Shown here: positions 22,582 to 35,299 of the stretch, piece after piece
Position numbering within the stretch: the first letter of the stretch is position 1
Layout: every line of letters starts with the position of its first letter
NCBI RefSeq assembly: GCF_000148995.1
Contig: NZ_GL538354.1
Span: 1 to 61,070 of the forward strand
Reading direction: 5' to 3'
Length of the DNA: 61,070 nt
DNA from: Listeria grayi DSM 20601
Lineage (GTDB): Bacteria > Bacillota > Bacilli > Lactobacillales > Listeriaceae
Notes under the pieces: model-generated
Told to the model about the DNA's origin: nothing
The model's input: only the letters and a program-made list of their open reading frames with translations
Database searches by the model: none
Translations under genes and position numbers: made by a program

Positions 22582-24177
22582 ATGGCATTATCTAATGAAC
22601 AACAAAATAAAATGTGGGCAATGCTCAATCAAACGCGAGGGCAAATTGGTTTAACAGCCTACAAAGATTATATTTTCGGTATTTTATTTTATAAATATCT
22701 TTCCGAAAAAGCTACTCAATGGTTAGAGAGTGTCTTGCGAGGAGAATCATGGGAAAGTATTTATTCACAAGATCCTGCTAGAAGCTTAGATTATATGAAA
22801 AAGAACCTAGGCTATGCGATACGACCAAATAATTTCTTTTCAGATTGGAAAAAAGCCATTGAAGAAGATCAATTTAATATTGGTTTAATGACGGATACAT
22901 TTGGACATTTTAACCAGCAAATCGCTTTTGAAGCAAAAAGTGATTTCGAGGGGATTTTTGATGGCATGCGTTTTGATAGTGCAGACTTAGGCGCCAATGC
23001 GCAAGCCCGAGCTAGCGTAATGATTTCTATGATTGAAGTATTATCTGCCCCGGAATTTGATTTATCTGGTGGAGATGATGCGATTTCAGATATCTATGAA
23101 TATTTAGTGGCTAAATTTGCTACTGTCTTAGCATCTGACATGGGACAGTATTATACACCAAAAGAAATTTCCGATGTAATGGCTCAAATTTTAACTTTTG
23201 GAAGAGAAGAGGCAGAACACTTCTCTATTTATGATCCGACTGTCGGATCAGGATCGTTGCTGTTAACAACTGCTAGTTATATGAAGAACTCGCATAAGCG
23301 GGGAATGATCAAATACTTTGGTCAAGAAAAAGATGCGACGCCTTATCGTTTATCCAGAATGAACTTAATGATGCATGGTGTGGAATATAATGATGTTAGT
23401 ATCAATCATGCCGATACGCTTAAAAGCGATTGGCCAGATGGTGTTGTTGAAGGAAAAGATAACCCACGTATGTTTGATGCTGTTATGGCAAATCCTCCCT
23501 ATTCCGCTCATTGGAATAATAAAGATCGTGAGGATGATCCGCGCTGGCGCGAATACGGAGTTGCACCGAAAACAAAAGCGGATTATGCATTCTTGTTACA
23601 TTGTCTATATCACTTGGAAGATAATGGTAGAATGGCGATTATTCTACCACATGGTGTTCTTTTCAGAGGGGCAGCGGAAGGGCGTATTCGTAAAGCGTTA
23701 ATTGATAAACATCAGATTGAAGCAGTCATTGGATTTCCGGATAAATTATTCTTAAACACATCCATTCCTGTTTGTGTGTTGATTTTAAGAAAGAATCGTG
23801 TGGAATCAGATGTTTTGTTTATTGATGCAAGTAAGGACTTTGAGAAGATGAAAAACCAGAAACGGCTGCGACCAGAAGATGTAGCGAAGATCGTGGATAC
23901 TGTGGTTCATCGCAAAGAAATGGAGAAGTACGCTCATATAGCAACGTTAGATGAAATTAAAGAGAATGACTATAACTTGAATATTCCACGGTATGTAGAC
24001 ACTTTTGAAGAAGAAGAACCAATCGATATTGTTGAAGTAAGTCAAGAAATCACTAAAATCAATGGCGAAATTAAGCAAGCAGAATCTGAATTTCTTTCTA
24101 TGCTAGACGAATTGGCGGTAACTCCGGAAACAAAAGATTTAATAGAGGCAGCAAAAGGAGTGTTCCGTAGTGAGTGA
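22582..24177 (+). CDS. hsdM: Type I DNA methyltransferase, M subunit
   Basis: 531 residues. HsdM N-terminal helical domain, then N6-adenine methyltransferase with motif I DPTVGSGS (218-225) and motif IV NPPY (304-307). With HsdS it methylates adenine in the bipartite target. Starts 33 bp after hsdR and overlaps hsdS by 8 bp. Confidence 0.97.
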   Translation: MALSNEQQNKMWAMLNQTRGQIGLTAYKDYIFGILFYKYLSEKATQWLESVLRGESWESIYSQDPARSLDYMKKNLGYAIRPNNFFSDWKKAIEEDQFNIGLMTDTFGHFNQQIAFEAKSDFEGIFDGMRFDSADLGANAQARASVMISMIEVLSAPEFDLSGGDDAISDIYEYLVAKFATVLASDMGQYYTPKEISDVMAQILTFGREEAEHFSIYDPTVGSGSLLLTTASYMKNSHKRGMIKYFGQEKDATPYRLSRMNLMMHGVEYNDVSINHADTLKSDWPDGVVEGKDNPRMFDAVMANPPYSAHWNNKDREDDPRWREYGVAPKTKADYAFLLHCLYHLEDNGRMAIILPHGVLFRGAAEGRIRKALIDKHQIEAVIGFPDKLFLNTSIPVCVLILRKNRVESDVLFIDASKDFEKMKNQKRLRPEDVAKIVDTVVHRKEMEKYAHIATLDEIKENDYNLNIPRYVDTFEEEEPIDIVEVSQEITKINGEIKQAESEFLSMLDELAVTPETKDLIEAAKGVFRSE

Positions 24178-25300
24178 GAAAAGGGTTCCGGATTTGCGGT
24201 TTAAGGGGTTTAGTGACGATTGGGAAGAGCGTAAGTTTGCTGATTTTATTGATGTTAAGTCTGGAAAAGACTACAAACATCTGAATTCGGGACCAATACC
24301 TGTCTATGGAACTGGTGGATATATGCTAAGTGTAGATAGAGCGCTATCAGATATAGATGCCATTGGAATCGGAAGGAAAGGGACAATTGATAAGCCTTAT
24401 TTATTAAAAGCGCCTTTTTGGACTGTCGATACCTTGTTTTACGCTGTTCCTAAACAAAATATTGACCTTCAATTTTCACTATCTATTTTTAAAAAAATAA
24501 ATTGGAAAAAATTTGATGAATCTACTGGTGTACCTAGTTTATCGAAAACTGTAATTAATAGTGTGGGTGCTTTTGTTCCCAGTTATGAAGAACAACAAAA
24601 AATAGGTTCATTCTTCAAACAATTAGACGAGACTATCGCTCTTCATCAGCGAAAATTGGAGCTGATAAAGCAGTTGAAACAAGGGTTTTTGCAGCAGATG
24701 TTTGTGCGTGAAGACGAGAAGGGGCCGGTATTGAGATTTGCTGATTTTGAGAGTGAATGGGAACAGCGTAAGTTGGGGGCGTTGGGTTCAGTTGTCATGA
24801 ATAAACGCATTTTTAAAGAACAAACATCTGATGATGGTGATGTTCCATTTTACAAAATTGGAACATTTGGAAGTGAACCAGATGCTTATATTTCTTATGA
24901 ATTATTTCTAGAATATAAAGAAAAATATCCTTATCCTGAAATAGGGGATATTTTACTTTCTGCTTCTGGAAGTATTGGAAGATCGGTAGTATATGAAGGG
25001 AAAGACGAATATTTTCAAGATAGTAACATTATTTGGTTAAAGCATGATGAACGATTAGATAATAAATTTTTGAAGCAATTTTATTTGATTGTAAAATGGC
25101 AAGGTCTTGAAGGTAGTACAATAAAACGATTATATAATAAAAATATTCTTGATACGAATATTTTTTTGCCTTCGCCTACTGAACAAGGCAAAATTGGATG
25201 CTTTTTTGAGAAACTCGACACCATCATCGCTCTTCATCACAATAAGCTAGAACAATTACAGTCCTTAAAAAAAGGTTATTTAAAAGCTTTATTCATCTAA
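24170..25300 (+). CDS. hsdS: Type I specificity subunit (expressed copy, two TRDs)
   Basis: 376 residues, GTG start inside hsdM. TRD1 (about 18-140) begins at WEERKFA; conserved helix 1 (about 141-178, QKIGSFFKQLDETIALHQRKLE); TRD2 begins at WEQRKLG (residue 197); conserved helix 2 closes the protein (LHHNKLEQLQSLKKGYLKALFI region). Each TRD reads half of the target. The 21-bp repeat at 24757-24777 at the start of TRD2 is repeated inverted in the silent cassette at 26875-26895, so the second half is expected to be exchangeable. Confidence 0.95.
   Translation: MSEKRVPDLRFKGFSDDWEERKFADFIDVKSGKDYKHLNSGPIPVYGTGGYMLSVDRALSDIDAIGIGRKGTIDKPYLLKAPFWTVDTLFYAVPKQNIDLQFSLSIFKKINWKKFDESTGVPSLSKTVINSVGAFVPSYEEQQKIGSFFKQLDETIALHQRKLELIKQLKQGFLQQMFVREDEKGPVLRFADFESEWEQRKLGALGSVVMNKRIFKEQTSDDGDVPFYKIGTFGSEPDAYISYELFLEYKEKYPYPEIGDILLSASGSIGRSVVYEGKDEYFQDSNIIWLKHDERLDNKFLKQFYLIVKWQGLEGSTIKRLYNKNILDTNIFLPSPTEQGKIGCFFEKLDTIIALHHNKLEQLQSLKKGYLKALFI
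24757..24777 (+). repeat. Inverted repeat IR-L at the start of hsdS TRD2
   Basis: 21 bp: A followed by TGGGAACAGCGTAAGTTGGG. The reverse complement lies at 26875-26895. Both copies encode WEQRKLG in frame. Predicted recombination site. Confidence 0.9.
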
Positions 25301-25318
25301 AATAATTAAACCAAAATA

Positions 25319-25358
25319 AAGGCCATGAAAAATCGGTACATCATTTTTCATGGCCTCT
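25319..25358. terminator. Bidirectional terminator between hsdS and the recombinase gene
   Basis: GGCCATGAAAAAT (25321-25333) pairs with ATTTTTCATGGCC (25343-25355), T-rich on both exits. It stops both the hsd transcript and the opposing recombinase transcript. Confidence 0.85.
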
Positions 25359-25369
25359 TTCCTAACTAC

Positions 25370-26299
25370 CTACATCAACATCGCCAAATGTCTCATAATC
25401 TTATCATTATCCTGATTCTCCAACTCCTGAATAATATGCAGATATGTTTCTTGAGTGGTAGTCATACTCGAATGTCCTAATCTTGTTGCCACGCTTGCAA
25501 TAGAAACTCCCGCAAAAAGAAGTAGAGAGGCATGCGTATGACGCAATCCATGTATGGTAATGATTGGAATACCTGCTTCCACACACAAAGTTTTCAACCG
25601 ATTATTTACTGTCGAATTAAATACTCTACTTTTAACAAAAATCGGTTTATCTGGATCGATTTCCTTGATCAATTGCGAAAACTGCATCGCTGTCTGCCAA
25701 TCGATTTGAATTTTACGCTTAGAAGAATTATTCTTAGTAGGTTGAAATTCACCAATCGTTCCTTTATAATTCCATGTTTTACTCACAGCTAATTTCTGCT
25801 TTGAAAAGTCAAAGTCATTAGGGGTTAAAGCAAGTGCTTCTGAAAAGCGTAAGCCGGTTTTAGCTACCAATAAAATAAACCAGTCCCAATTGATTTCGTT
25901 AGTAAGCTTTAATTGCTTTAACATTGCTTGCACTTCAAATTGATTTAAAAATTTGGGTTTCTTTTCTCTCGCTTTTCGCCCTTTAATAATAATTTTTCTA
26001 GTTGGATTTTTAGCTATCAATCCTTCATCCACTGCATCTAGGATGGATCCTTTTAATTGATGATGAAAATCCATCGTTGTCTGCTTTTCATGAGTCAATG
26101 CGTAATCATTTAATAATTTTTGATAACTTTTTCTGTCTAAACTACCAATTTTTAGTTGTGGCGCTAATTCTTCAAGACGTTGATGTGTCATATAATATTT
26201 TTGAAGCGTAACATCTCGAACGGCCCCTACTTTATACAACTCAATCCATTCTTCGAAATAAGTACAAAATAATTGCTCTGCTTTTTTCTTTCTTACCAA
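25370..26299 (-). CDS. Tyrosine recombinase, probable hsdS invertase
   Basis: 309 residues from TTG 26299, preceded by TAGGAGG with 8-bp spacing. N-terminal SAM-like core-binding domain (about 8-90) and phage-integrase catalytic domain with Arg151 (TGLRFSEAL), His250/Arg253 (HGLRHTHAS), His276 (LGHSS) and nucleophile Tyr286 (ETYLHI): all catalytic residues present. No phage genes or att duplications are nearby. Its place between two inverted hsdS parts is that of the CreX/PsrA-type recombinases that shuffle hsdS genes in Streptococcus and lactobacilli. Main alternative: remnant of an integrated element. Confidence 0.92.
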   Translation of the reverse strand: MVRKKKAEQLFCTYFEEWIELYKVGAVRDVTLQKYYMTHQRLEELAPQLKIGSLDRKSYQKLLNDYALTHEKQTTMDFHHQLKGSILDAVDEGLIAKNPTRKIIIKGRKAREKKPKFLNQFEVQAMLKQLKLTNEINWDWFILLVAKTGLRFSEALALTPNDFDFSKQKLAVSKTWNYKGTIGEFQPTKNNSSKRKIQIDWQTAMQFSQLIKEIDPDKPIFVKSRVFNSTVNNRLKTLCVEAGIPIITIHGLRHTHASLLLFAGVSIASVATRLGHSSMTTTQETYLHIIQELENQDNDKIMRHLAMLM

Positions 26300-26322
26300 A
26301 ATAAAAACCTCCTAATAATTTT

Positions 26323-26339
26323 TGATGTTTATAACATCA
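26323..26339. promoter_or_regulatory. Palindrome upstream of the recombinase gene
   Basis: TGATGTT-TAT-AACATCA, a perfect 7-bp inverted repeat centred about 32 bp before the TTG start and overlapping a TATAAA-like -10 on the minus strand. Candidate operator for control of the recombinase. Confidence 0.4.
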
Positions 26340-26378
26340 TTTCTATTATTGGGAAGTTTTTAATTATTGAAAAGTATT

Positions 26379-26924
26379 TTAAATGAATAAGTTTTTTAAG
26401 TAGGCTTTTTTAAGAGTAGTCAGTTTTTCTATTTTAGAATGGTGAAGAGTGATGGTGTTGTCGAGTTGTTGGAAAAAGGTACCGATTTTTTTTTGCTCTA
26501 AAAAAGTAGGTATTTTAACAGGTAATTTCATCAATGTATTAGAAGTTAATTTTGCTCTACCTCCACCAACTAAAAACGGCTCAATATTAATAGATTTAAT
26601 TGCATTCATTAAAAATTTATTATCACTGACTCTGTCTATTCCTTGTATAACATGAGCATGATTATTAACCCAAATTTTTTCGTTTACATATTGGACGGGA
26701 TAATTTATTAGATCATTAGCTCCATCTTCTGCTATCAATACATATTCACCTTTATGAGTAAATCCTTCAACATAATCTTGTATTCCATTAGCACCATAAT
26801 AAGGAGTTGTCCCTGCTATTCTATCTGATGCAGTAACTGGAATTCTTAAATTATCAAAACGGTTAGCAATTTCTCCCAACTTACGCTGTTCCCATGCGTC
26901 AATTTCCCCGAAATTCAACTCCAT
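26379..26924 (-). CDS. Silent hsdS cassette: second half of a specificity subunit (TRD2')
   Basis: Homologous part starts at WEQRKLGEIANRF and runs through a different TRD to the conserved closing helix (LHHSKIEKLTTLKKAYLKNLFI region). It is only half of an HsdS and has no convincing ribosome site or promoter; ATG 26924 is the nearest start, while the frame stays open to 26990 without homology. The TRD differs from that of hsdS, and the 21-bp repeat at its beginning keeps frame, so after inversion the product would be a 367-residue HsdS. Best read as a storage cassette, not an independent gene. Confidence 0.85.
   Translation of the reverse strand: MELNFGEIDAWEQRKLGEIANRFDNLRIPVTASDRIAGTTPYYGANGIQDYVEGFTHKGEYVLIAEDGANDLINYPVQYVNEKIWVNNHAHVIQGIDRVSDNKFLMNAIKSINIEPFLVGGGRAKLTSNTLMKLPVKIPTFLEQKKIGTFFQQLDNTITLHHSKIEKLTTLKKAYLKNLFI
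26875..26895 (-). repeat. Inverted repeat IR-R in the silent hsdS cassette
   Basis: Reverse complement of 24757-24777, 21 of 21 bases identical. The flanking bases differ on both sides, so the identity is sharply bounded. Confidence 0.9.
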
Positions 26925-27227
26925 TACCGAAATTATATTCAAAAATAAGGTATAAGAAAGCAACGAATTGAGTGAAAAGTAGGAACACATCCCTCAGGAT
27001 AAAATAAAGGTATGGCGAACCTTATCTTTATTTAGAAGACACCACTCCATCTATTTTTGATAAAGTAGTGTAATATTTTCTATCTTTGATCTTCATGCTT
27101 CTACGTAGTGGGATTCTTATACCAATAACACATTCGAATTACCATATACCAATCTTTAACCCAAAATACCATTTCAAAAACCCCCCCCCATTTTTTGTTC
27201 CCAATTACTGAAACAAATACCCAAATC

Positions 27228-27423: not shown

Positions 27424-30400
27424 ATGGCGAAAAAGCTATTAACGATCAGCTTAACGATTATGTTAGCAGTTAGTGTTTTAGCGACGAATGCATTTCCAGT
27501 GTTTGCAAGCAAGCAACAAAAGTTGGCGGATAAAGATTTATATAAGCCAAATGACGCGTATAGTTATATCGTGTCTGCCACGACCGGTAAAGTTGTCGAA
27601 ATAGATGGTGATGCACTTACCGCAAGTGGGAACGAGAATGATGGCAATAAGCTGACAGATAAAAGTCTATTTTCGATTCAAAAATTTGAAGAAGCTAATC
27701 GTGTACAGATCACTCGTACGGATAATCCAAATCAGGTTTGGGTGAGCAATGGAGAGAATCTTCTAGCAAATGGCACGAAGCAAGCGACGATCTCGGCGGG
27801 AAGCTGGGAAGGTTTTGAATTGGAAAAAACGACCGGCGATATGGTTAACATCAAAAATTTTGACGGTCACTATATTCAGCTTCAAAATGATAAATTAGTA
27901 ATTGGTTCAGCGGATAAAGAGCAGGCAGAAAGCTTTTATATCATTGCGCCAAAATACGAAGATACGAGTGTTTATATGGAACATAAGCAAACTGGCAATT
28001 ATATTCAAGCAAATGGGATAGCGAACGATCCACTGACAGTTGACGGGAAGAAAGAGAATGATAAGATCGGTGACAAAGCAAGATTTAGTCCGATTTACGG
28101 TACTTTTGACGGTCAGCCGGTAATGAATTTTGTTTCGAAAGCATTTGGTAATATCACTTGGAAATCCGGCGGAACAGATACAGTTTTCCAAAACAACGGG
28201 GTTCTGGCAAGTGGCTGGGAATCGATCGTGGTGGTGCCGAATGGGGATGGAACGATTTCTTTCAAAGATTCGCAAAACAAGAAATATATTACTGTCAAAG
28301 ACGGCAAATTAGCTTGCAATTATGAAGGCAACTTGACGAACAATGAAAAATTTGTGATTCATACTGTCACAGCTCCTAAAAAAGCTACAGGGCTGAAAAC
28401 GGAAACGGTGACGAATTCTTCTGCCAAAATCACTTGGAACAGTCCTTCAGAAACGATCTACACTGGCTTCAAAGCGGTTTTGGTCAATCAATCGACAAAT
28501 GAATCGATCATCGGGGAAGAAACAAATAAAAAAGAATGGACTTTCAAAGATTTGAAACCGGGAGCAAGCTATTCAGCGAGTGTGCGAACGGTGAATGCGG
28601 ACGCTCCTTATGCTGAAAGCGAAGCAGTCACCTTCCAAACGAAAAAAGGTGTAGCTCCTGAAAAGCCGACGCAATTAGAGGCCAAAGCGGCTAATAATGC
28701 GATCGAGCTTAGCTGGAAGGCAGTGAACGGCGCAGACAGCTATGACATTTACCGCGCTAAAAGTGCCTACGACAAAGATGGCTATAAAAAAATCGCGACT
28801 GGGATCAAAGCAGCAGCTTATACGGATAAGGATCTGAATGCGGATAAGTACAGTAATTACTATAAAGTCGTTGCTGTGAACGAAAATGATGCGTCTGATC
28901 TATCCGATGAGTTCGCTTCTTTAGAAAAAACATTGTTTGGCAAAAATATCTATATTTTTGCACCAACAGACGATACGAAGCAGATTGACGAAATTTTAGC
29001 GAATACCTTCCAATTACAGAATGATAGTGATAAGAATGCCCAATTTAATGAAAATCGTTTTACTTTCTACTTCAAACCAGGTGATTATACAAAAACGAAA
29101 ACGATTCCTGTTGGTTTTTATACACAAATTGCTGGATTGGGTCAAACGCCTTACGATGTGAAGCTAAACAATTTGGAAGTACCAGCTTATCTACCGGATT
29201 TCAATGCGACTTGTAATTTCTGGCGTTCCGGCGAAAACTTCTCAGTAATGAATACTGGCGACAACACTTCTTATTTCGGCAGTTATCGTCCGGATCAATT
29301 CAACTGGTCAGTAGCACAAGCAGCTCCACTTAGAAGGATCTATTCCGAAAGAGCGATGAGCTATGATTGGAACTACGGCTGGGCGAGCGGTGGTTATGTG
29401 GCGGACAGCAAGATCGACGGGATCACCGGCGAAGGGAATAGTTCAGGTACTTTCTCTGGACAACAGTTTTACACACGTAATTCCGAAGTGAAAGGAAATG
29501 TTTACGGAACGACGCTGAATGCTTTCTATCAAGGAGTCGTTGCTCCAAATCTTGTTAATGATCAATCCGGCAAAGCCTTAGTGAACGGCAATGGTTTCAG
29601 CAACTGGGCGATCCCGACAAGTGATCAACAGCAACAAGTAGACACAAATGTCGCAACCACACCGGAATTACGAGAAAAACCATTCCTATTCCTTGATAAG
29701 GACGGAGAATATAAAGTCTTTGTCCCAGCACTGAAAAAGAACTCCAAAGGGACTTCCTGGTCAAAAGACAGTATGGGAGACGGCAAAGTTGTTTCACTGG
29801 ATAAATTCTATATTGCTAAAGAAGGCGATTCCGCAAGCAAGATCAACGGCGAACTGGCAAAAGGCAAAAATATCTTCTTCACGCCGGGAGTCTACCATGC
29901 GGAAGAAACGATCAAAGTCCAAAAAGAAAATACGATCTTACTCGGAACCGGAATGGCATCGATCATTCCTGATAACCAAGAGGCAGCCATGCATTTAGAT
30001 GATGTGAGTGGCCTTACAGTGGCAGGATTGATATTTGATGCAGGCGAACATTCCAAAGCAATGCTAGTGGCGGGAGAAGAAGGTAAACATACAAGCCACG
30101 CCAGCAATCCGACACTACTTGCAGATCTATTCTTTAGGATCGGTGGCACGACTGATAAATTGACGAAGGCGGACGACGCTTTGATCATCAACAGTGACGA
30201 TGTTATCGGTGACCATTTCTGGATCTGGCGTGCAGATCACGGCACCGGCGTTTCCTGGGACGGCAATAAGTCGAAACACGGCATGATCGTGAATGGTGAT
30301 AATGTGACTTCTTACGCGCTTTTCAATGAACATTTCCAAGAATACGATACACTGTGGAATGGCGAAAATGGTGCCACGTATTTCTATCAAAATGAAAAAG

Positions 30401-31500
30401 CATATGACCCGATCAGCCAAGAAGCATGGATGTCGCATAATGGGACGGTCAAAGGCTATGCGGCTTATAAAGTAGCGAATAAAGTGAAGAAACATTACGC
30501 GATCGGGCTTGGCATCTATAATGTCTTTATCAACACAGGACCTACGCACGACTCGTCTAAAGTCCAAATCGAATTAGACAATGCAATCGAAGTCCCGAAT
30601 GCGAAAGATGTTCTGATCGAAAATGCAACGCTGCAAACCTTCGCGAAGGAAGATGGCGCTCTGCAAAAATTCAATCATATCATCAATGGGACAGGGGAAG
30701 GCGTTAGCAGTGGCGTGGATGTCAATACAGGCGAAAAAGGAGAAGGCTGGTCCCGTAAGTTTATCCTAAGCTACCAAAATGGCGTGACGACAAGAGGATT
30801 TAATGGATCCATCACCGAGCAGGGGCAACAGCCAACGGACGAAAATGGCCAACCACCCGTGCAATCTGTAGATAAAACAGCTTTAAAAAAGTTGATCGCC
30901 CAAAGTGAAACAAAGAAAAAAGCAGATTATACTGCAAAATCATGGACGGCTTTTGAAACAGCATTAAAAACTGGTAAAACAGTCTGGAACGATACGAAAG
31001 CAACGCAAAAAGAAGTAACGCAAGCCGAGAAGAATCTCCAACTAGCACTAGAAAAATTGGTGAAGGCACCAGTAAAAGTTGATAAAACAGCGCTAAAGAA
31101 GACGATCCAGCATAATAAAGATAAAAAGAAAGCAACTTACACTGCCAAAACATGGGCGCCTTACGAAAAAGCATTCAAAAAAGCAGAAAAAGTCTTGAAT
31201 GATGCAAAAGCAACGCAAAAAGAAGTCAATCAAGCAGAAAAAGACTTATCAAAAACAGCTAAAGCGTTGAAAAAAGTAAAAGTAAACAAAAAAACGCTGA
31301 AAGCGACAGTAGAAAAGAATCAGCATAAGAAAAAGAAAAATTACACAAGTAAAACGTGGAAGAAGTATTCCCAAGCATTGAAGGAAGCCAAACATGTTTT
31401 AAAAGACAGCAAGGCGACCCAAAAGAAAGTCGATCAAGCCGATAAAAACTTGAAAAAAGCTGTAAAAGGCTTGAAAAAAGTCAAAAGTAAACACAAATAA
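27424..31500 (+). CDS. Large secreted multidomain protein with FIVAR repeats, probably glycan-active
   Basis: 1358 residues. Signal peptide (about 1-29, ending VFA); beta-trefoil/fascin-like region (about 40-310); two fibronectin III domains (about 316-410 and 411-500); a large domain (about 505-1130) with IAGLGQTPYDV, WAVSQ-like VAQAAPLRRIY, and NSDDVIGDHFWIWRADHG; then three FIVAR-type repeats starting at 1149, 1219 and 1287. Homologues of the large domain are, as I recall, usually labelled coagulation factor 5/8-type or adenylyl cyclase, neither of which is informative; a beta-helix carbohydrate-active fold is likely. No LPXTG; the tail is very lysine-rich. The cre site fits sugar use. Confidence 0.85.
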   Translation: MAKKLLTISLTIMLAVSVLATNAFPVFASKQQKLADKDLYKPNDAYSYIVSATTGKVVEIDGDALTASGNENDGNKLTDKSLFSIQKFEEANRVQITRTDNPNQVWVSNGENLLANGTKQATISAGSWEGFELEKTTGDMVNIKNFDGHYIQLQNDKLVIGSADKEQAESFYIIAPKYEDTSVYMEHKQTGNYIQANGIANDPLTVDGKKENDKIGDKARFSPIYGTFDGQPVMNFVSKAFGNITWKSGGTDTVFQNNGVLASGWESIVVVPNGDGTISFKDSQNKKYITVKDGKLACNYEGNLTNNEKFVIHTVTAPKKATGLKTETVTNSSAKITWNSPSETIYTGFKAVLVNQSTNESIIGEETNKKEWTFKDLKPGASYSASVRTVNADAPYAESEAVTFQTKKGVAPEKPTQLEAKAANNAIELSWKAVNGADSYDIYRAKSAYDKDGYKKIATGIKAAAYTDKDLNADKYSNYYKVVAVNENDASDLSDEFASLEKTLFGKNIYIFAPTDDTKQIDEILANTFQLQNDSDKNAQFNENRFTFYFKPGDYTKTKTIPVGFYTQIAGLGQTPYDVKLNNLEVPAYLPDFNATCNFWRSGENFSVMNTGDNTSYFGSYRPDQFNWSVAQAAPLRRIYSERAMSYDWNYGWASGGYVADSKIDGITGEGNSSGTFSGQQFYTRNSEVKGNVYGTTLNAFYQGVVAPNLVNDQSGKALVNGNGFSNWAIPTSDQQQQVDTNVATTPELREKPFLFLDKDGEYKVFVPALKKNSKGTSWSKDSMGDGKVVSLDKFYIAKEGDSASKINGELAKGKNIFFTPGVYHAEETIKVQKENTILLGTGMASIIPDNQEAAMHLDDVSGLTVAGLIFDAGEHSKAMLVAGEEGKHTSHASNPTLLADLFFRIGGTTDKLTKADDALIINSDDVIGDHFWIWRADHGTGVSWDGNKSKHGMIVNGDNVTSYALFNEHFQEYDTLWNGENGATYFYQNEKAYDPISQEAWMSHNGTVKGYAAYKVANKVKKHYAIGLGIYNVFINTGPTHDSSKVQIELDNAIEVPNAKDVLIENATLQTFAKEDGALQKFNHIINGTGEGVSSGVDVNTGEKGEGWSRKFILSYQNGVTTRGFNGSITEQGQQPTDENGQPPVQSVDKTALKKLIAQSETKKKADYTAKSWTAFETALKTGKTVWNDTKATQKEVTQAEKNLQLALEKLVKAPVKVDKTALKKTIQHNKDKKKATYTAKTWAPYEKAFKKAEKVLNDAKATQKEVNQAEKDLSKTAKALKKVKVNKKTLKATVEKNQHKKKKNYTSKTWKKYSQALKEAKHVLKDSKATQKKVDQADKNLKKAVKGLKKVKSKHK
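30868..31491 (+). repeat. Three tandem FIVAR-type repeats in the secreted protein
   Basis: Units of about 70 codons start at 30868, 31078 and 31282, each with the pattern K-x-YT-x-K-x-W and KATQK-x-V-x-QA-x-K. The word AAAGCAACGCAAAAAGAAGT occurs in units 1 and 2. Lysine content rises from unit 1 to unit 3. Confidence 0.85.
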
Positions 31501-31631: not shown

Positions 31632-32474
31632 ATGGTAATTATCGGACTTACAGGTTGGAGCGACCATGATACGCTGCTGAATAATCAAAAGAAACTGCAT
31701 TTAGAAGATTATGCGGCTCATTTTCCGCTTGTAGAAGTAGACACGAGTTTTTACGCGATCCCCTCACCTAAAACGACGACGCAATGGGTCCGGCAGACAC
31801 CGGCGGGTTTCGGATTTGTTGTAAAAGCCTTTCAAGCGATGACACTGCATAAAGAGTGGCAGGATTATTTTGATTCCGAGCAAGCCATGTATCGTGCTTT
31901 TATGGATATGATCGCCCCAATCAGTGAAGAGGGCAAGTTGAAAGCAGTCTTGTTTCAATTTCCACCATATTTTAATTGTACGAAGGAAAACATCTCTTAC
32001 TTACGCTATATTGCTAAGCAAATGGAAGGTTTGCCAGTTGCGATCGAGTTCCGCAATAAATCCTGGTATTCTGAGACTAATCGAGAAAAAACACTCGCAT
32101 TGCTGACCGAACTGAAATTTATCCATACGGTTGTCGATGAACCGCAAGTCGGAAATGGAACGGTGCCGATCGTCTTGCAGGCAACACATCCAGAGCTGAC
32201 ATTAGTGCGGCTCCATGGGCGAAACCAATTTGGCTGGCTCAAAGGTAACAGCGAGAATTGGCGGGAAGTACGCACGCTCTATCGCTATAATGAGGAAGAG
32301 ATCGAAGAGTGGAAAAAATACATCCACCATTTAGAAAAATCGTCGAAAGAGATCGTGGTGATCTTTAATAATAACAGCGGCGGAGATGCTGCTGATAATG
32401 CCAAGCAATTGGAAAAAGCGCTTCAAGTACAATACGATACACTTGCACCGCGGCAGATGAATCTGTTTGACTAA
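31632..32474 (+). CDS. DUF72 family protein (YunF-like)
   Basis: 280 residues, TIM-barrel-like DUF72. Signature segments: GLTGWSDHD, VEVDTSFYAIPS, FGFVVKAFQAMT and VRLHGRNQFGW. The family is widespread, structurally related to endonuclease IV-type barrels, and has no firmly known function. It begins a run of five closely spaced forward genes (31632-36376). A TATAAT-like box and AGAAAGG lie upstream. Confidence 0.9.
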   Translation: MVIIGLTGWSDHDTLLNNQKKLHLEDYAAHFPLVEVDTSFYAIPSPKTTTQWVRQTPAGFGFVVKAFQAMTLHKEWQDYFDSEQAMYRAFMDMIAPISEEGKLKAVLFQFPPYFNCTKENISYLRYIAKQMEGLPVAIEFRNKSWYSETNREKTLALLTELKFIHTVVDEPQVGNGTVPIVLQATHPELTLVRLHGRNQFGWLKGNSENWREVRTLYRYNEEEIEEWKKYIHHLEKSSKEIVVIFNNNSGGDAADNAKQLEKALQVQYDTLAPRQMNLFD

Positions 32475-33925: not shown

Positions 33926-35299
33926 ATGAAAAAATTAACACTATGGCATACGAATGACATCCATAGTCACTTTGAAAATTGGCCGCAGATCATTGCTTTT
34001 TTACAAGCAAAGAAAAAGCAGGCAGATTCTTCTGGAGAAGCCGCACTATTCTTTGATATCGGCGACTTTCTAGATCGCGTCCACCCGCTGACGGAAGGAA
34101 CGAATGGAAAGGCAAATGTAGCGATGCTGAACGAGCTACCTTATGATGCCGTCACGATCGGAAACAATGAAGGGACGACGTTGGCACATGAACAGGTAGA
34201 AGAACTCTATGAGGATGCCGTATTTCCTGTTGTCTGCTGTAATCTATATGAAGATCTCGATTATCAAATCAGACCAGACTGGGCGGCGCCTTTCGTTTAT
34301 AAACAAATCGATGATCATAAAGTTGCGATCCTCGGCGCAACAGCACCATTTCGCGAGTTTTATGAAACATTGGGTTGGGGAATCGAAGAGCCGATTCCAG
34401 CTATCCAAAAAGTCTTAGCGATGCTAGATAAAGACACGGACACGATCATTCTGCTTTCACATCTGGGTTTACAGGCAGATGAACGGATAGCAGCGGTACT
34501 GCCAGAAATCGATATCATCATCGGCAGCCATACGCATCATTTACTCGAAACTGGTAAAATGGTAGGAAACACACTGCTTGCTGCCGCTGGGAAATGGGGA
34601 CAGTATGTGGGCGAGATCACGATCACTTTCCATGATGATAAAACTATCGCAGCAAAAACGGCGATCACTTATCCGACCACCTCACTTCCCGATGTTGCTG
34701 GAAAAGAAGCAATGATCGCGCAATATTTTGAAGAAGGAAAAGCGGAATTATCTGCTGAAGTGGTCCACCTCCCAGAAGCTCTTTATCATGATTGGTACCA
34801 GACTTCAAAAATAGCGGATATAATGGCGGAAGCTGTGATAGAATGGACAGGGGCAGAAACATTTCTAAACAATGCCGGTATCTTTATGAAAGATTGGCAG
34901 CCGGGAACCATTACAGAATTCGACATCCATCAAATGCTGCCACACCCGCTCAATGCGATTGTGGTGACGATGACAGGTGAAGAACTGGCCGTGCTGATCC
35001 AATCGATTGCAGAAAAAGAAGCAGAATTAGTCCAATTACCGCTAAGAGGTTTTGGCTTCCGTGGTGAGTTTTTCGGAAAGATCCTGATGCCCGGAGCGAG
35101 CTTCGATGCCGAAAACCAAGTGGCGCTATTCAATGGCGAATGGATCGATGCACAAAAAGAATACCGGATCGCCACACATGATACATTTGTATTCGCACCA
35201 TTTTTCCCGATCATCAAACGGGTATCTAAAAAAGAAGTGTATACACCGGAGCTTTTGCGTGATATTTTAAAATGGAAGCTAAAGGCTATTTACGGATAG
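33926..35299 (+). CDS. Bimetal phosphoesterase, 5'-nucleotidase family (YunD-like)
   Basis: 457 residues. N-terminal calcineurin-like phosphoesterase with HTNDIHSHFENW, FDIGDFLDR, GNNEGT, LLSHLG and GSHTHH metal motifs; C-terminal 5'-nucleotidase domain (from about 260, with FLNNAGIF and MLPHPLNAIV). No signal peptide, so it acts in the cytosol, as YunD does; substrate likely a nucleotide or related diphosphate. Fourth-position gene context: followed 17 bp on by yutD. Confidence 0.9.
   Translation: MKKLTLWHTNDIHSHFENWPQIIAFLQAKKKQADSSGEAALFFDIGDFLDRVHPLTEGTNGKANVAMLNELPYDAVTIGNNEGTTLAHEQVEELYEDAVFPVVCCNLYEDLDYQIRPDWAAPFVYKQIDDHKVAILGATAPFREFYETLGWGIEEPIPAIQKVLAMLDKDTDTIILLSHLGLQADERIAAVLPEIDIIIGSHTHHLLETGKMVGNTLLAAAGKWGQYVGEITITFHDDKTIAAKTAITYPTTSLPDVAGKEAMIAQYFEEGKAELSAEVVHLPEALYHDWYQTSKIADIMAEAVIEWTGAETFLNNAGIFMKDWQPGTITEFDIHQMLPHPLNAIVVTMTGEELAVLIQSIAEKEAELVQLPLRGFGFRGEFFGKILMPGASFDAENQVALFNGEWIDAQKEYRIATHDTFVFAPFFPIIKRVSKKEVYTPELLRDILKWKLKAIYG

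Follow-up and report, generated by a model that had tools for sequence, protein, structure and literature searches.

By its gene content, the locus described here is a type I restriction-modification system. Within the window (the whole 61,070-nucleotide stretch of DNA that we analyzed), hsdR, hsdM and hsdS are adjacent on the plus strand, and each product has the domains of its family. Two convergent genes on the minus strand follow, encoding a tyrosine recombinase and one half of an HsdS (Table 1). HsdR scored slightly below the cut-off of the NCBIfam hsdR model (273.9 bits; cut-off 284.55). The expressed hsdS starts with a GTG inside the end of hsdM, with AAGGAG upstream, and its product consists of two units, residues ~18-194 (TRD1) and ~197-375 (TRD2).

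Table 1. Coordinates of the features of the hsd locus, numbered from the first nucleotide of the window.
Feature	Position	Strand	Basis or remark
hsdR, restriction subunit, 995 aa	19561..22548	+	Pfam HSDR_N, SWI2_SNF2 and T1R_D3-like above cut-off
hsdM, methylation subunit, 531 aa	22582..24177	+	Pfam N6_Mtase and HsdM_N; NCBIfam hsdM above cut-off
Expressed hsdS, 376 aa, two TRDs	24170..25300	+	Pfam Methylase_S, two stretches
Imperfect related site, TRD1 start	24214..24237	+	24-nt arms 88% complementary to silent site; 16-nt core with one mismatch
21-bp repeat, proposed recombination site, TRD2 start	24757..24777	+	ATGGGAACAGCGTAAGTTGGG
Proposed invertible segment, 2,139 bp with both sites	24757..26895		Inferred from repeat pair
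Possible two-way terminator hairpin	25320..25356		Strong hairpin between convergent hsdS and recombinase; inverted-repeat search; z-score -5.8
Tyrosine recombinase, 309 aa, proposed invertase	25370..26299	-	Pfam Phage_integrase 77.2 bits, cut-off 27.1
Silent one-TRD hsdS half, 203-aa ORF	26379..26990	-	Pfam Methylase_S; one unit
Inverted copy of 21-bp repeat, silent TRD start	26875..26895	-	Reverse complement of 24757-24777

The recombinase gene is intact, as a first, sequence-only reading of this DNA had held. Its open reading frame is unbroken, with AGGAGG before a TTG start, and the product matches the Pfam Phage_integrase family well above cut-off; no NCBIfam model scored above its own cut-off. 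By eye, the protein has what we take to be the catalytic R, H, R, H and Y motifs of the family. A terminator scan reported no site, including at the possible hairpin between hsdS and the recombinase gene. The half gene had been called promoterless, which is plausible. It has in-frame ATGs at 26990 and 26924, by eye with no well-spaced Shine-Dalgarno sequence before them, and a promoter scan was uninformative (9 sites, compared to 9.4 expected in shuffled sequence). Upstream of 26895 we looked for traces of another TRD, the first of the silent copy; the best E value, 0.029, is not significant.

We found that the two arms of the repeat, 2,097 nt apart, are perfect over 21 bp and lie exactly at the start of TRD2 and in the half gene, as first described. 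Among perfect inverted repeats in 24170-26990 whose arms are separated by over 500 bp, this pair is the longest. When that region was dinucleotide-shuffled 200 times, the maximum was 18 bp, found in one shuffle, and none reached 21 bp. Allowing as many as two mismatches, we found the 20-mer TGGGAACAGCGTAAGTTGGG at the two arms and nowhere else in the 2,598,321-bp genome; the same whole-genome search with the 20-mer written backwards gave no match. The reading frame is also shared between the sites: an in-frame WEQRKLG begins at W197 in HsdS and at W33 in the half gene. Joining 196 residues of the expressed protein to 171 of the silent half gives a predicted inverted product of 367 aa, the length that had been estimated beside the present 376 aa. 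In sequence the locus thus looks like an inverting type I system, with a different part of hsdS on the opposite strand and, shared by the two, a perfect inverted repeat above the 20-bp minimum.

The best reading of the locus, and in our view very probably the right one, is a recombinase-driven switch that exchanges TRD2 of HsdS between two states. The sequence-only reading had proposed such a switch, and the anatomy, the shared frame, the recombinase and the published systems described below all argue for it. The adjacent tyrosine recombinase would pair the two 21-bp sites and invert 2,139 bp, sites included. Inversion would trade the TRD at the C-terminal end of the expressed hsdS, the copy that follows hsdM, for the TRD stored in the half gene, placing the silent TRD behind HsdS residues 1-196, so that a 367-aa form replaces the 376-aa form. 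The two forms would have TRD1 in common and differ in TRD2 only, and a clonal population would therefore contain two type I specificities that share a half-site. We infer that the two forms occur side by side and that each one methylates, giving two methylomes. In the single assembly examined, the locus is in one orientation.

We compared the locus with those of related recombinases. The set contained 93 distinct recombinase loci, one per distinct recombinase end (last 250 residues) matching at 300 bits or more; 33 of these, including the window, were close (at least 480 bits) and 60 were distant. In 29 of the 33 close loci hsdS flanks the recombinase on both sides, and in all 29 the two copies are on opposite strands. 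Recombinase homologues at 77-79% identity were found in 5 of 24 other genomes of the genus, and HsdM at 83% identity or more in 4 of 24.

The position of the recombinase between two hsdS copies in most close loci argues that it acts on the sites beside it. It is conceivable that the sites recombine through another recombinase or through general recombination and that the gene next to them is a passenger; other, distant tyrosine recombinases are present elsewhere in the same genome. A repeat of 21 bp is short for general recombination. In Streptococcus pneumoniae, passages of PMC4948785 report precedents on both sides: two of three inversions, at IR2 and IR3, are independent of PsrA, but inversion via the short (15-bp) repeat IR1 requires PsrA, as established by deletion and complementation. 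We consider a passenger role highly unlikely.

That pneumococcal locus (psrA/hsdSA/hsdSB; Spn556II, cod locus) is, by analogy of gene layout, the closest functional precedent for the switch proposed here. As described in the same passages, a tyrosine recombinase gene adjoins a silent hsdS with a single TRD (hsdSB, 609 bp), and the C-terminal part of the expressed hsdS is swapped through a short inverted repeat. The window has the same layout, with its recombinase, one-TRD silent hsdS and short repeat at the TRD2 start. The swap is demonstrated in the pneumococcus and predicted here. The pneumococcal locus differs in having a third hsdS (hsdSC) and two longer repeats, whereas the window has one repeat pair and two hsdS copies (PMC4948785).

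From the same genus are the four-state hsd loci of Listeria monocytogenes CC8 and CC4, which likewise comprise hsdR, hsdM, hsdS, a recombinase and an inverted hsdS (passages of PMC4783014 and PMC7662400). In CC4, alleles switch, and the four alleles give four methylation targets by SMRT sequencing (PMC7662400). According to the passages, these loci have two repeat pairs, a two-TRD silent copy and four alleles, and lie between lmo0520 and lmo0521. In contrast, the window has one pair and a one-TRD store, next to sufB, and so lacks the two repeat pairs and two-TRD silent copy of a four-state locus. The published 5' repeat differs from the sites here by 2 to 3 mismatches in 16, a distance that the unrelated position 24441 also shows (3 mismatches). 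The published central repeat has two matches in the window, one of 4 mismatches at 24633-24661 and one of 7 at the C-terminal end of hsdS; they lie on the plus strand, and no copy was found in the silent half.

Listeria innocua 2010L-2059 (NZ_CP095725.1) has the same gene order and a recombinase 76.8% identical over 306 aa; it differs in its neighbours and in its silent hsdS of ~400 aa, which has two TRDs as judged by length and by two starts of the W-x-x-R-K type. A REBASE survey, in the passages concerned, puts the share of potentially inverting hsdS genes at 3.9% and reports loci of this type from 60 of 123 L. monocytogenes strains (PMC7394358). Its criterion is an inverted repeat of 20 bp or longer, 100% identical between its arms, no more than 30 kb from hsdS; the window would qualify, as a locus of the same kind. 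The remark in the sequence-only reading that such genes are not known from this place in L. monocytogenes has to be withdrawn, given the loci published from that species (PMC4783014, PMC7662400, PMC7394358, in the parts cited above). The window is from Listeria, probably L. grayi, and the position of the locus therefore says little about L. monocytogenes. The product of a chromosomal gene nearby (33926-35299) matched one protein cluster at 97% and proteins of named Listeria species at 58-62%, among 15 proteins with E values of 1e-150 or better. The L. grayi label comes from one database protein, P0126 (below), and L. monocytogenes is an unlikely source. The passages of PMC13198106 and PMC3019230, which bear on L. 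grayi together with hsdS, type I restriction or phase variation, do not describe this locus. This type of switch is thus already known, including in Listeria; what sets this locus apart is the reduced silent copy and the place next to sufB.

The reduced silent copy is unusual among close relatives. Among the 29 close loci that hsdS flanks on either side of the recombinase, the count is two TRDs per side with clear roles in 24 and two per side with unclear roles in 2. In one more (L014) both copies are short and their roles unclear, and we set it aside from the one-TRD count. Two TRDs face one in the remaining two, the window and L012; we also set L012 aside from that count, its second copy being cut by the end of the contig. 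This leaves the window as the only clear one-TRD silent copy among the 33 close recombinase loci. Among the distant loci, 24 of 60 lie within 1.5 kb of the end of their stretch; hsdS was found on both sides in 9 of the 60, and 5 of these 9 have two TRDs facing one.

These counts bear on whether the locus still switches. It might be a decayed, locked remnant of a four-state Listeria-type switch whose silent copy has lost its first TRD, acting now as an ordinary type I system whose specificity is fixed. A two-TRD silent copy is usual in relatives, and in the window the silent copy has one TRD, the TRD1 site is mismatched, and the published central repeat has one reasonable match. However, both sites are still perfect over 21 bp, and the reading frames of hsdM, hsdS, the recombinase and the silent TRD are all open. 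A one-TRD store is also enough in S. pneumoniae (PMC4948785, as above). We regard a locked remnant as unlikely.

The related sequence at the start of TRD1 raises a different issue, that of further states. In addition to exchanging TRD2, the locus might recombine at the TRD1 site and so make a one-TRD, half-length HsdS. The TRD1 start has the core of the site with one mismatch. We measured the length of exact matches at TRD starts in 33 loci whose roles are clear. In four loci with one-TRD stores (L027, L031, L112 and L114) the store matches both TRD starts of the expressed gene over at least 20 bp, and for S. pneumoniae, passages of PMC4948785 describe excision events between direct repeats. 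In contrast, the exact run of the window's store is 21 nt at the TRD2 start and 6 nt at the TRD1 start, and no half-length product or junction was seen. More than two states thus seems improbable. Separately, in L112 the one-TRD store and the expressed TRD1 have in common a 524-nt identical inverted run, as though the store had received a copy of TRD1.

An elaborated version of this idea is a reduced switch with three outcomes. The silent half would have arisen by excision between same-strand sites in a former two-TRD copy, and rare recombination at the TRD1 site would yield a half-length HsdS that dimerizes to methylate a symmetric target. Half-length HsdS proteins can function as dimers. If this were true, one recombinase would give both asymmetric and symmetric type I specificities. 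We think it distinctly doubtful, and continue with the two-state exchange of TRD2.

The proteins in the databases indicate whether the silent TRD type is found at the second position. P0126, a partial HsdS labelled Listeria grayi from another strain, has a central region that is identical at ~41 of 48 residues (by eye) to that of the window's expressed HsdS. Behind it lies a TRD identical to the silent TRD at 155 of 172 residues (90%). The silent TRD type thus does occur where inversion would put it. Alternatively, P0126 could come from a silent two-TRD copy or from a fixed allele. The silent TRD type is also at position 2 in P0135 (L. monocytogenes) and P0133 (L. welshimeri). A tally of its position made without a length filter (76 of 124 starting past residue 120) is given no weight. 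P0021 (L. monocytogenes) has the window's active TRD1 and TRD2 types together.

The combination predicted for the inverted form, the TRD1 type with the silent type, was found in only 2 of 240 proteins (type being defined as 55% identity over 80% of the TRD); the 240 came from two HsdS searches that were not designed for TRD combinations. One of the two, P0220, is full length and has the TRD1 type (61%) followed by the silent type (61%). The other, P0051 (524 aa), has the TRD1, TRD2 and silent types in series. As a side observation, P0051, P0092, P0093 and P0095 (HsdS-like proteins of 524-588 aa) have the TRD2 and silent types in tandem and seemingly contain three TRDs.

Exchange of TRDs at this point is also consistent with plasmid sequences. 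TRD1 of the window (24185-24777) is 87-90% identical at the DNA level to plasmid hsdS genes of Lactococcus, Latilactobacillus sakei and Enterococcus faecium. Among the 40 records listed of 787 that matched, 18 have a match that ends at window positions 24774-24779, the end of the repeat. That the matches end at the repeat fits TRD exchange at that point, by whatever enzyme. We also looked for near-identical plasmid records in the opposite orientation; among the 40 listed of 787 matched, none covers 80% of the query.

We considered whether the word CAG-CGT-AAG is a specific sign of the recombinase, and rejected it. Near close recombinases, 74 of 85 QRK TRD starts carry the word, where codon use predicts a fraction of 0.022. 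It is also used at 11 of 16 TRD starts in hsdS loci that have no recombinase homologue in the stretch examined; for this control 9 of 30 loci were dropped because they had a recombinase homologue, and sites were de-duplicated by their 48-nt context. A word so common without a recombinase cannot alone identify the target of this one. The word is conserved at TRD starts far beyond codon use in the control loci (L160-L189; predicted fraction ~0.02) as in the recombinase loci.

Among the genomes of the genus compared, the place of the locus in the chromosome is peculiar to this one. SufB is present in all 25 genomes of the genus, and in 30 stretches around sufB or a paralogue (~1.5 kb per side) hsdR adjoins sufB only in the window's genome and in none of the 24 congeners. 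A DUF72 gene lies near sufB or a paralogue in 11 of the 30 stretches; in the window it is at 31632, past the hsd locus and the gene (27424-31500) for a 1,358-aa protein. This protein has an fn3 domain and three FIVAR stretches and is probably secreted, judging its N-terminus by eye. About 235 bp upstream of its gene is a run of nine Cs (27181-27189), the sole C or G run of at least 8 in the window, which could be a slipping tract.

The locus opens no new mechanism. Having two states and a single pair of repeats, it would be a simpler model than the pneumococcal and L. monocytogenes loci for measuring the effect of a TRD2 swap. If the switch is active, the methylome and the restriction of phages would vary within a clone, which would bear on transformation, on work with phages and on how methylation data are read.
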